From the IMG/VR virus record IMGVR_UViG_3300042868_003893, positions 1 to 23,487 of that record: a DNA stretch of 23,487 nt; one strand, given 5' to 3'. Source of the stretch: a virus. The translations under genes and the position numbers were made by a program. The notes beneath the pieces are model-generated. The model was not told the origin of the DNA. It was given only the letters and a program-made list of their open reading frames with translations, and did no database searches. Of the stretch, positions 2 through 14,528 are shown in pieces (within the stretch, counting starts at the first letter, position 1; each line of letters begins with the position of its first letter).

Positions 2-283
2 ACCGGATTCAACATCACAGTGCCCACGCCCACCACAGAGCAGCAGTGGATGATCTTTCAGCCAGCCGGAACTCTGGCCGCTGGAACAGTCACCCTACCC
101 CTGAACACCAGCGTACCAGACGGCACAGAGGTAAGAGTCACCACCACTCAGATCATTACCACATTCACGCTGGCGCTGAACGGCGCAGCAGCAGCCTTCG
201 GAGCACCCACCACCCTGGCCGCAAATGCCTTCTTTACGATGCGTTTCTACCAGGCCACCAACAGCTGGTATCGCGTCGCCTAA
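2..283 (+). CDS. Partial small phage structural protein (C-terminal end)
   Basis: The reading frame is open from the first full codon at position 2 to TAA at 281-283, so the gene probably begins upstream of the window. An internal GTG at 20 has no visible ribosome binding site. The visible 93 residues are rich in Thr, Ala and Val with alternating hydrophobic residues, which suggests a beta-rich fold. The end, around 'LAANAFFTMRFYQATNSWYRV', resembles C-termini of small structural or decoration proteins encoded between capsid and tail genes in podoviruses (recognised by eye, not searched). It lies 3 bases before the next gene in the late operon. The exact function is unknown. Confidence 0.6.
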   Translation, partial: TGFNITVPTPTTEQQWMIFQPAGTLAAGTVTLPLNTSVPDGTEVRVTTTQIITTFTLALNGAAAAFGAPTTLAANAFFTMRFYQATNSWYRVA

Positions 284-286
284 GCC

Positions 287-571
287 ATGGCCACAAAAGA
301 CACACGACTTGCCCGTGCCGGGGTCTCGGGCTACAACAAGCCCAAGGCCACCCCAAGCCACCCCACCAAAAGCCACGTCGTCGTGGCCAAGTCGGGCGAC
401 CAGATCAAGACCATCCGCTTTGGTCAGCAAGGCGTGTCCGGCTCTCCCAAAAAAGAGGGCGAATCCAAGGCCAGCCAAGCGAGGCGCGAATCATTCAAAG
501 CTCGGCACGCTGAAAACATTGCCAAAGGCAAACTGAGCGCAGCGTATTGGGCCAACAAGGTCAAGTGGTAA
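287..571 (+). CDS. Small basic phage protein, conserved in podovirus late regions
   Basis: 94 residues, strongly basic and probably disordered in its first two thirds. The N-terminus has a 'GVSGYNKPK..PSHPTKSHVVVAK' pattern and the C-terminus a conserved 'SFKARHAENIAKGKLSAAYWANKVKW' type motif. I recognise this pattern from small proteins of many environmental podoviruses and other phages whose role is unknown. The basic character would fit nucleic-acid contact or packaging, but that is inference. It sits between the partial structural gene and the gp10-like gene with gaps of only 3 bases, so it is part of the late operon. ATG 287 is the natural start, directly after the upstream stop. Confidence 0.75.
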   Translation: MATKDTRLARAGVSGYNKPKATPSHPTKSHVVVAKSGDQIKTIRFGQQGVSGSPKKEGESKASQARRESFKARHAENIAKGKLSAAYWANKVKW

Positions 572-13155: not shown

Positions 13156-13197
13156 AATGGTCAGCTCCTTGCTGGTTTGGTTTGTTGCGATGACTGA

Positions 13198-13225
13198 ATC
13201 ATAACATCATTTCACACAATCTCAC
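13198..13225 (-). promoter_or_regulatory. Candidate leftward promoter, copy 1 of a duplicated block
   Basis: On the - strand GTGAGA (13220-13225) and TATGAT (13198-13203) are 16 bases apart, about 45 bases before ATG 13155. The nonamer TTATGATTC containing the -10 recurs at 22552-22560 ahead of the Sak4-like gene. The surrounding block (13211-13256) is repeated at 14001-14036. Confidence 0.45.
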
Positions 13226-13256
13226 ACAATTCATTGATAGGGGCAAACCCTTAGAT
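13211..13256. repeat. Duplicated promoter-like block, copy 1
   Basis: Two conserved parts, 13211-13228 and 13241-13256, match 14001-14018 and 14021-14036 at 16/18 and 15/16 positions, with 12 versus 2 bases between them. Both copies are in the same orientation and lie on either side of the attC/cassette locus. In both, the - strand TAA stop of an upstream reading frame lies in the shared 'ATCTAAGGGTTTG'. Confidence 0.75.
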
Positions 13257-13382
13257 CGCCGGAGATAAGCGGGGCGCGTAGCGCATCCGACTTGGGCGAC
13301 CTGTTTTTAACCCTCGCTCGTAGGCCCAGCGAATCATCGCCATGCTGTCGTTTCCGTAGCTTGCTGAAATCACGTAGTCCAT
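13251..13382 (-). pseudogene. Truncated PP-loop (PAPS-reductase-like) gene, 5' fragment
   Basis: A 43-codon frame from ATG 13382, with GGAG upstream, begins 'MDYVISASYGNDSMAMIRWAYERGL'. SYGNDS is the PP-loop (SxGxDS) ATP-pyrophosphatase motif of phage PAPS-reductase-like proteins, normally some 200 residues or more. After residue 25 homology stops and the frame reads through an attC-like hairpin ('KTGRPSRMRYAPRLSPAI') to TAA. The fragment cannot be a working enzyme. It lies between attC-like hairpins, so a recombination break is likely. Confidence 0.7.
13257..13312 (-). other. Degenerate attC-like hairpin
   Basis: Read on the - strand, AACAGGTC (13300-13307) starts an arm with 'CAAGTCGGATGCGC', a short loop, and a returning arm 'GCGCCCCGCTTATCTCCGGCG'. 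The arms pair as AAG-CGG-GCGC with unpaired bases, like attC L''/L' boxes. AACAGGTC and the 14-mer GCTTATCTCCGGCG are identical to parts of the attC-like site at 13926-13978, which lies in the opposite orientation. The expected 3' GTTRRRY core is missing (GCGATCT instead), so recombination activity is doubtful. Confidence 0.45.
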
Positions 13383-13401
13383 CGTTCTCGCTCCGAAAAA
13401 C

Positions 13402-13458
13402 TGCTAACCCGTCATTCCAGCGGACGCCTATCGGCGCCCCTGAATTCAGGCGTTAGGT
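13402..13458 (+). other. Candidate integron attC site (attC-1)
   Basis: 57 bases in the classic 59-base-element layout. R'' TGCTAAC (13402-13408) is complementary over CTAAC/GTTAG to R' GTTAGGT (13452-13458), a perfect GTTRRRY core. The arms CAGCGGACGCC and GGCGCCCCTG pair with one extrahelical A in the 5' arm, as in known sites such as that of aadA cassettes. TATC forms the loop. The asymmetry places the cassette orientation on the + strand, with crossover expected between 13452 and 13453. The last codons of the gene at 13446-13631 (- strand) overlap it. Confidence 0.7.
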
Positions 13459-13631
13459 TCCTTTGCGCGGTCGATCTTGCTGCGCACCCATTCGGCACCT
13501 CCAAGCCGTGCCAGCTTCGCCCGTTGCTCCGGGGTCATCCGCAAGGAGGCTGTTACTGTCTCATCCCCCTGCTTCACGGGCTTGCGGCCTTGCCCCCTTC
13601 CGGGGCCTCCGCGCTTGGCTTCTTTGCTCAT
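13446..13631 (-). CDS. Small basic DNA-binding-like protein (cassette gene 2)
   Basis: 61 residues. The basic N-terminus 'MSKEAKRGGPGRGQGRKPVKQGDETVTASLRMTPEQRAKLARLGGAEWVRSKIDRAKEPNA' contains an RHH-like strand-helix-helix pattern ('ETVTASLRMTPEQRAKLARLGGAEWVRSKID', residues 24-54), seen in small proteins of plasmids, prophages and chromosomes of Burkholderiales. ATG overlaps the preceding stop (ATGA at 13628-13631). Its last codons 'PNA-stop' lie in the attC-1 site. It could be the autorepressor binding the paired repeats upstream of the pair; that is inference. Confidence 0.72.
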   Translation of the reverse strand: MSKEAKRGGPGRGQGRKPVKQGDETVTASLRMTPEQRAKLARLGGAEWVRSKIDRAKEPNA

Positions 13632-13837
13632 GCGTGGCGCTTCATCAGAAGGCTGGTGGCGGCACGTTCCGGGCCGGTCACGTAGTCAAGCAGGTGCTCG
13701 GCTTCTTCGTCTGTCACTTCGGCGTAGGCTTCGGCGCTGGTGATGCCGTAGTGCTTGGCAATGTTTGCCAGAATTGCCGCCTTGGTGGCTGCGTCGGTGG
13801 CTGCAAGAAACTTGGTGCTGATTTGTGCGTTGTTCAT
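13628..13837 (-). CDS. Small helical protein (cassette gene 1), function unknown
   Basis: 69 residues from ATG 13837 with AAGGAG upstream. 'MNNAQISTKFLAATDAATKAAILANIAKHYGITSAEAYAEVTDEEAEHLLDYVTGPERAATSLLMKRHA' is all-helical with an acidic central part. I recognise this type as occurring together with the 'GGPGRGQGRKP' protein in plasmids and prophages. The acidic-basic, overlapping arrangement with a private promoter resembles a toxin-antitoxin or similar two-part module, but no known toxin fold is visible. Confidence 0.72.
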   Translation of the reverse strand: MNNAQISTKFLAATDAATKAAILANIAKHYGITSAEAYAEVTDEEAEHLLDYVTGPERAATSLLMKRHA

Positions 13838-13872
13838 TTTGTTTCTCCTTCGTTTGTTGAGTTGATGTTGTT

Positions 13873-13900
13873 ATTGTAGTGCGTAATCAAACAATGTCAA
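13873..13900 (-). promoter_or_regulatory. Strong sigma-70-like promoter of the cassette operon
   Basis: On the - strand a perfect TTGACA -35 (13895-13900) and TACAAT -10 (13873-13878) are separated by 16 bases, about 36 bases before ATG 13837. It is the best consensus promoter in the window. Confidence 0.7.
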
Positions 13901-13925
13901 GAACTATTTGTAGTGCGCTATCAAA
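13874..13925. promoter_or_regulatory. Paired direct operator-like repeats
   Basis: TTGTAGTGCGTAATCAAA (13874-13891) and TTGTAGTGCGCTATCAAA (13908-13925) match at 16 of 18 positions and are 34 bases apart. Each has an imperfect palindrome (TGTAG...CTATCA in the second). One copy overlaps the -10 and spacer, the other lies just upstream of the -35, as expected for autoregulation by a small DNA-binding protein. Confidence 0.6.
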
Positions 13926-13978
13926 ACATAACAGGTCAATCAAGGCCGACCTGCGGCGGCTTATCTCCGGCGTTGCGA
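13926..13978 (+). other. Candidate integron attC site (attC-2)
   Basis: 53 bases. R'' ACATAAC (13926-13932) and R' GTTGCGA (13972-13978) pair over AAC/GTT. The 5' arm AAGGCCGACC and the 3' arm GGCGGCTT pair with two extrahelical bases in the 5' arm, around a TGC loop. This is the layout and orientation of attC-1, 520 bases away. The R' core departs from GTTRRRY at the sixth and seventh positions, so it is weaker than attC-1. Its 14-mer at 13959-13972 is an exact inverted copy of 13257-13270. Confidence 0.58.
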
Positions 13979-13985
13979 TGCCCAC

Positions 13986-14015
13986 ATCTTAACACACTAT
14001 TTCCCACAATCTCAA
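13986..14015 (-). promoter_or_regulatory. Candidate leftward promoter, copy 2 of the duplicated block
   Basis: On the - strand TTGAGA (14010-14015) and TAAGAT (13986-13991) are 18 bases apart, inside the block repeated at 13211-13256. It would read toward the cassette operon. The -10 is weak. Confidence 0.35.
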
Positions 14016-14036
14016 ACATGGGACAAACCCTTAGAT
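14001..14036. repeat. Duplicated promoter-like block, copy 2
   Basis: 14001-14018 and 14021-14036 match copy 1 at 13211-13228 and 13241-13256. It includes the TAA stop of the gene at 14031-14528. The two copies flank about 750 bases containing all the attC-like hairpins. Confidence 0.75.
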
Positions 14037-14528
14037 TGAAGTGATCTCCACATCATGCGGTTTTCGCTTTCCGACCAGCAGTTCATGCAGGCGTTGCTCG
14101 GTCAGGCGGTGGCAGCGAATCATGGTGCGTGCGGGCAACACATCCAGCAGCGCGGCGTAATCCTCCAACACAGCACGCACGGCATGGATGCCTGCACCAT
14201 CCAGCCGGATCGCGCCCCCGGCCAGGTTTCGCCTGCCTGCCATTGCCATCGCGGTGATCGAATCCATCAGCAGGCCAGAGCTGTCCTCGCACACTTGCAT
14301 GGTCTCGATCAGGGTCTCCATCAGGTTGACCGCATCCGACACCACCCGCCAATCGTCCGTGGTGGGGCTTGGCGCTTTTTCCATGGCGGCCAGCCCCTCG
14401 TACATCCTGGTGAGCTGGTGTCGGCGGTATTCCGGCGGCAGCGGCTCGGTCGGGCTGGCCATCATCTCGTCAAGAATCGTGTAGTGCTTCGGCCTTTGGG
14501 CCGGGCGTTTCTTCCCGGCCTTCTTCAT
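14031..14528 (-). CDS. Conserved phage protein, function unknown
   Basis: 165 residues, helical, with a basic N-terminus ('MKKAGKKRPAQRPKHYTILDEMM') and a body containing 'QLTRMYEGLAAMEKAPSPTTDDWRVVSDAVNLMETLIE' and 'LDGAGIHAVRAVLEDYAALLDVL'. The layout is like small proteins common in Burkholderia prophages and plasmids, whose role is not known. ATG overlaps the upstream stop (ATGA at 14525-14528). Its stop lies in the duplicated promoter-like block, so it is probably the last gene of the upstream transcription unit. Confidence 0.75.
   Translation of the reverse strand: MKKAGKKRPAQRPKHYTILDEMMASPTEPLPPEYRRHQLTRMYEGLAAMEKAPSPTTDDWRVVSDAVNLMETLIETMQVCEDSSGLLMDSITAMAMAGRRNLAGGAIRLDGAGIHAVRAVLEDYAALLDVLPARTMIRCHRLTEQRLHELLVGKRKPHDVEITSI

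Follow-up and report, generated by a model that had tools for sequence, protein, structure and literature searches.

Probable integron-cassette DNA in a phage early region and an apparently undescribed class of phage cassettes with reversed polarity

Introduction

Phages have already been reported to carry clusters of attC sites lacking an integrase (CALINs; Qi et al. 2023, PMC9892861), and in that study five of six phage attC sites recombined with attI1 under the action of IntI1. This integrase also inserts DNA at minimal secondary targets, for which a GNT consensus has been quoted (PMC4618277). The insertion of cassettes at non-classical "attG" sites has likewise been described, according to PMC12901181, which cites Loot et al. 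2024 (its reference 57) on this point.

Here, we describe a related locus in a 23,487-base IMG/VR virus record, taken in full (hereafter "the window"), whose genes include those for phage head, tail, and recombination functions. The locus is situated in the leftward early region, adjoining a MazG-like gene. Apparently, it is a natural cassette insertion and a member of a seemingly undescribed class of phage cassettes in which the genes run against their attC sites.

Results

The attC sites of the window

We searched for attC sites with a covariance model (R1) constructed from 14 attC sequences, 12 from bacterial plasmids and two from one virus contig. The entire window was scanned on both strands with filters off. 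A first list that contained longer chromosomal sites was too heterogeneous for alignment; R1 was thus made from shorter sites, which biases it toward aadB-like attCs. One of the 14 seed sequences was short by a single base, an error whose effect is expected to be immaterial. Searches of the window for Rfam families (at gathering thresholds) and for tRNAs yielded no matches.

A preliminary description of this DNA had placed two plus-facing, attC-like hairpins here. R1 recovered both of them, in position, with the attC layout, on the plus strand, and well above background (E = 9.6e-12 for attC1 and 1.7e-5 for attC2; Table 1). The orientation of attC1 is clear, as its score on the plus strand (53.0 bits) compares to 10.3 bits on the minus strand. 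It carries the perfect GTTAGGT core that had been ascribed to it, and its bottom strand folds better than shuffled sequences do (z = -2.4). When the attC1 hairpin was used as a blastn query, 550 plasmid records were matched, many at integron attC sites (e.g., those of fosE, qacF, and aadA16). The second site, attC2, is closely resembled by the aadA2 attC. Alone, it folds poorly (z = -0.4 vs. shuffles), and its R' box, GTTGCGA, is a degenerate version of GTTRRRY; the final bases, TTGCGA, are phage target sequence, which fits with the poor quality of this half.

The next-best R1 match was a third site, attC0, which the preliminary description had missed. Its score is marginal (Table 1), and its R' box does not conform to GTTRRRY; rather, it ends as G|ATCTAAGG in a conserved phage motif, i.e., at a G|AT target (the bar denotes the cut). 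It resembles attC-like sites of two other contigs (L138 and L150). With two same-strand attC sites 520 bp apart, a weak third, and no integrase nearby, the locus is a CALIN (at least two attC sites without a nearby integrase).

Table 1. Features of the inserted segment and its phage flanks (window coordinates).
Feature	Position	Strand	Details
Phage sequence left of the insert, a conserved ~70-bp intergenic segment ("type A" copy)	13184-13256		GTTGCGATGACTG...AAACCCTTAGAT
attC0, degenerate attC-like site	13257-13307	-	R1 match 13257-13303, 16.2 bits, E = 0.043 (marginal)
Remnant reading frame running into attC0	13257-13381	-	First ~25 aa MDYVISASYGNDSMAMIRWAYERGL; from sequence
attC1	13402-13458	+	R1 53.0 bits, E = 9.6e-12; crossover 13452/13453
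P0002, 61 aa, basic (GRGQGRKPVK...), second gene	13446-13631	-	Homologue alignment
520-bp cassette with its genes running against attC	13453-13972		Starts at the attC1 crossover; 88% identical stretch in L002/L200
P0001, 69 aa, all-helical, first gene	13628-13837	-	Conserved phage family
Direct repeat 1 (TTGTAGTGCG..ATCAAA), operator candidate that overlaps the promoter	13873-13892		From sequence
Predicted sigma-70-type promoter, TTGACA-N16-TACAAT	13900-13873	-	11/12 consensus
Direct repeat 2, possible operator	13907-13927		From sequence
attC2	13926-13978	+	R1 29.1 bits, E = 1.7e-5; crossover 13972/13973
Phage sequence right of the insert, the ~70-bp segment again ("type B" copy), insertion target	13973-14042		Alignments to relatives

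Could the hairpins be phage terminators or regulatory elements that resemble attC sites by chance, with the difference in gene content being due to ordinary homologous or illegitimate mosaicism? Phage genomes are mosaics, and a terminator-like stem does overlap attC2. Nevertheless, the strength of the attC1 match, its likeness to attCs of clinical integrons, the presence of multi-attC arrays in several phages, and the breaks at the crossover base in independent comparisons (see below) render this explanation very improbable.

Boundaries of the insert

The insert is absent from about 25 related phages that have the same surrounding genes, and R1 detected no attC in the empty-site relatives (L018-L040, L063, and L090). 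In 15 relatives, the right-hand homology resumes exactly at 13972, corroborating the crossover that had been predicted at 13972/13973; the comparison with homologous phages that had been proposed as a check is therefore consistent with a cassette. For a cut at this point, 60 of 62 bases on the right side are identical to those of the closest relatives (L025 and L034), compared to 3 of 16 on the left side. The empty site at this flank reads ...GGTTG|TTGCGATGCCC. The left-hand homology of the relatives stops at 13251-13261. The break at 13256/13257 is evident on the minus strand, where the window has CTCCGGCG|ATCTAAGG and L018 has CACTTCG|ATCTAAGG; this attC0-side empty-site sequence is present in L018 and L035.

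Judging from these alignments, the right junction coincides with a G|TT cut point and the left one with a G|AT cut point. Both G|TTGCGATG and G|ATCTAAGG are intact across L025, L034, L018, and L035. Hence, at the sequence level, an attC R' half is joined to a G|WT target that is uninterrupted in the relatives, as in attG insertion. The DNA is also a discrete unit, like an integron gene cassette: attC crossovers delimit it, and phages have it whole or not at all. It is larger than the single 520-bp segment first proposed, spanning ~13257-13972 (716 bp) and containing the remnant of a further cassette.

The insert sits between two diverged copies of the ~70-bp phage sequence (Table 1). The left copy resembles one group of relatives, aligning with the single copy in L019, L035, and L036, and the right copy resembles another group. 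The relative that is closest on the left, L018, matches the window through 13258 and again from 13994, and these two segments overlap in the L018 sequence; it follows that L018 has a single ~70-bp copy where the window has two. For the window contig taken alone, the two flanks might have arisen from an assembly chimera at this repeat.

Genes, promoter, and repeats of the cassette

Although the preliminary description drew the insert too small, the reversed operon that it proposed is in place: both genes and a promoter with an 11/12 match to consensus lie antiparallel to the attC sites. Three promoter-like sites were found in the region, as opposed to 0.5 expected. The promoter region is conserved in other P0002-carrying phages, as are, in homologues from other phages, the two direct repeats located at and upstream of the promoter.

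P0001 is confidently predicted to be a small helical protein (AlphaFold2 pLDDT of 93.3), and a comparison of the model to the PDB returned no match with E <= 0.001. We considered whether P0001 is a bacterial integron cassette gene; this notion was discarded, as its two bacterial relatives are in runs of small genes with no attC in view. Both of these genomes have intI elsewhere. On a Pseudomonas plasmid (L101, 4944-6130), ~300 bp separate a P0001 relative from the gene of a tyrosine recombinase.

An alignment of 16 P0002 homologues revealed 19 invariant residues. The predicted structure of P0002 is of low confidence (pLDDT of 71), making its fold uncertain; conceivably, the protein may be a self-regulating, DNA-binding protein that acts on the promoter repeats. 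Its stop codon is just past the crossover, inside attC1 (13446-13452). Because the P0002 frame extends over the crossover and is terminated within the neighboring attC1, the C-terminus depends on the adjacent cassette.

The start of the remnant frame resembles what we take to be a PP-loop/PAPS-reductase-like start; a Pfam search with this frame returned no match. A reversed cassette of contig G154 contains a full-length gene that appears, by eye, similar to this truncated start.

The same cassette and attC sites in other phages

The phage nature of the contigs examined is attested by portal, terminase, tape-measure, and tail matches. One of them, L200 (of which L002 is a part), has a portal gene and a gene set unlike that of the window, and its version of the two-gene cassette is 88% identical, with the homology beginning at the crossover edge. 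There, the cassette ends in another attC, one with similarity to Vibrio repeats. L227 is a relative of L200 from the same metagenome; the two have 97% of the left flank in common, as far as ...TTCTAC G|TTA. Past this point, the two contigs have different cassette arrays (L200 10908-13600 vs. L227 4484-5650), both with further attC sites, followed by a common right flank. By sequence comparison, this pair gives the clearest sign of cassette exchange, and it represents a true exchange hotspot. An insertion hotspot had been suggested for the window itself; the idea thus finds its example in L200/L227, whereas in the window's lineage an attC occupies the spot in one of about 25 relatives.

About twelve further phages contain P0002 together with its promoter region. 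The gene is bounded by attC sites in L103, L105, and L108 and lacks them in L102, L111, L112, and L114, a distribution that suggests that P0002 started out as a phage gene and was later turned into a cassette. A stretch of attC2 (13926-13972) recurs verbatim over 45-46 bp in L117 (10280-10332), L135 (2165-2217), and L146 (1893-1945), with different genes on both sides. It is as if the attC had been exchanged separately from the gene among these four phage contigs. Conversely, P0002 has a different attC in each phage. With the same gene beside different attCs and the same attC beside different genes, homology must break at R' boxes and at R'' boxes alike. Such reshuffling is unexpected from simple bottom-strand crossovers at R'; it may stem from crossovers of the top strand or from homologous exchange. 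The attC2-type pattern had no match in 398 sampled Pseudomonadota genomes, and thus a donor was not found among them.

Genes for DNA modification proteins, i.e., Mom (E = 3.8e-37) and Dam (E = 2.7e-9), occur within reversed phage cassettes, where they are plausible anti-restriction cargo. Examples of reversed cassettes with Mom-family and Dam-family genes are found at L150 4185-4820 and at approximately 13188-13797 of L204 (G163). Overall, the pool of cassette genes looks phage-native. We also observed a single open frame of 6095 codons (L218-L219; G155 16269-34556) in a 55.5-kb phage contig with five attC sites.

Polarity of the genes with respect to attC

A cassette gene is usually co-oriented with its attC, but this arrangement is no strict requirement. 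The genes studied here depart from it: in the window, as in 37 of the 41 clearly scored phage cassettes, they run antiparallel to attC instead of preceding it on the same strand. The sample comprised contigs that were picked up via P0002, the attC2 motif, or the MazG-like gene. The direction of each gene was called mechanically from codon use and ribosome-site scores, as calls from the longest ORF were too noisy. Among 45 phage cassettes, 37 were antiparallel, four parallel, and four unclear; for those with attC sites on both sides, the counts were 23, two, and two, respectively. The two-sided sign test gave values of 1e-7 (37 vs. 4) and 2e-5 (23 vs. 2), with the proviso that the cassettes are not fully independent.

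When P0002 was set to the plus strand, all attC matches in the phage loci bearing it were on the minus strand; the same was true of L085 and L086, which were oriented by the MazG-like gene. The gene directions are independently backed by the Mom and Dam proteins and by the conserved P0002 family. In control integrons, the annotated resistance genes are on the attC strand; the codon-plus-ribosome-site scores gave few clear calls there, and the control therefore rests on those annotations. Reversed small operons had been noted beforehand as known from chromosomal integron cassettes; in the phages studied here, reversed genes are not confined to single cases, and they are apparently the rule. Virus contig L151 displays the canonical polarity by eye, and hence virus contigs include exceptions to the rule. 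Reversed polarity is what appears to be new in the phage contigs sampled.

The genes would be normally oriented if these near-symmetric sites were true attCs that must be read in the opposite sense, with the crossover at the minus-strand GTT of the R'' box. Such a reading could accommodate the homology break that is also found at the R'' box (13927/13928), as well as the different attC that accompanies P0002 in each phage and the verbatim recurrence of attC2 in unrelated cassettes. We nonetheless judge it to be improbable, given the disparity of the attC1 scores on the two strands, an L-box asymmetry like that of the aadA2, fosE, and qacF sites (whose genes are upstream on the same strand), and outermost junctions, in L200/L227 as well as in the window, that are on plus-strand G|TT, where the phage side has no hairpin.

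Integrase and movement in trans

The preliminary description had noted no integrase in view, and this held: a search of the window and of 16 attC-bearing contigs, records that may be fragments, returned no integron integrase (TIGR02249) over the cut-off. Similarly, no tyrosine recombinase (PF00589) was found in the window or in nine array contigs, which may also be fragmentary. Lacking both matches, the window does not contain a complete integron (intI with an adjacent attI and Pc). The failure to find an integrase, taken together with the competence of phage attCs as IntI1 substrates and with secondary-site insertion, makes an IntI supplied in trans, by the host or by co-infection, the best explanation for how the cassettes move. 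The enzyme is one that we infer, as the window is a metagenomic contig without an integrase or a known host.

A phage-encoded or unknown recombinase could take the place of IntI as the mover of the cassettes. The pool is common to many unrelated phages, none of which has IntI, and the pattern of attC2 is absent from the sampled Pseudomonadota genomes, as such a scenario would have it. We consider it unlikely, since the potentially fragmentary contigs surveyed have no tyrosine recombinase and known phage attCs are substrates of IntI1 (PMC9892861).

Discussion

The best explanation for the whole, in which we place high confidence, is that 13257-13972 is integron-cassette DNA that was inserted by IntI into a phage early region, that the window is a mosaic of two phages, and that the cassette belongs to a reversed phage pool. 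A host-encoded or co-infecting integron integrase would have joined the attC of a cassette to a non-attC phage target, i.e., an attG-like secondary site. One phage would have received a minus-oriented cassette at G|AT, and another would have received plus-oriented cassettes at G|TT. On the simplest reading, an exchange between those two phages produced the present mosaic; such a history would account for the divergence of the two flanking copies. The cassette would have been drawn from a pool common to phages in which the genes point against attC, and consequently the attC precedes the genes. Expression would come from the genes' own promoter or from a phage operon, not from an integron Pc.

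A wider proposition, for and against which we find ourselves evenly balanced, is that phages possess their own communal pool of reversed-polarity cassettes, moved in trans by the integron integrases of their hosts, with attC sites being re-used between genes. In such a pool, the attC would stand ahead of self-promoted or operon-read phage genes, anti-restriction genes included.

If these ideas are correct, bacterial integron integrases would provide phages with a gene-exchange service, and integrase-free phage cassettes, some with DNA-modification genes, could be precisely swapped in one step during infection. Reversed polarity would suit phage operons and would poorly suit expression from the Pc of an integron. 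It would also offer a simple sequence signature for finding such cassettes, and it raises a testable question regarding the strand that is exposed during phage replication.

How does this locus compare with known systems? Both attC1 and attC2 share layout (R'', L'' with an extra base, L', and R') and sequence with the aadA2-, aadB-, fosE-, and qacF-type attCs of class 1 integron cassettes; in contrast, the annotated cassette genes of those integrons are co-oriented with attC. As in attG or secondary-site insertion, a cassette resides on a minimal non-attC target, and the G|TT and G|AT sites are within the GNT consensus of IntI1 (PMC4618277). Such insertion is known from bacterial genomes, whereas the recipient here is a phage.

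The phage CALINs of Qi et al. 2023 (PMC9892861) are similar in that they are attC cassettes without intI and carry DNA modification cargo. However, the TJE1 and PH101 arrays were described as typical, and the genes here are antiparallel to attC. With its bias toward aadB-like sites, R1 found no site in P12002L and only one in TJE1; the latter (244-293, plus strand) is beside orf1 (77-280, plus strand) and thus co-oriented with it, unlike the cassette of the window. Beyond what those CALINs offered, the present locus adds an empty site, exact junctions, and cassettes that recur across phages.
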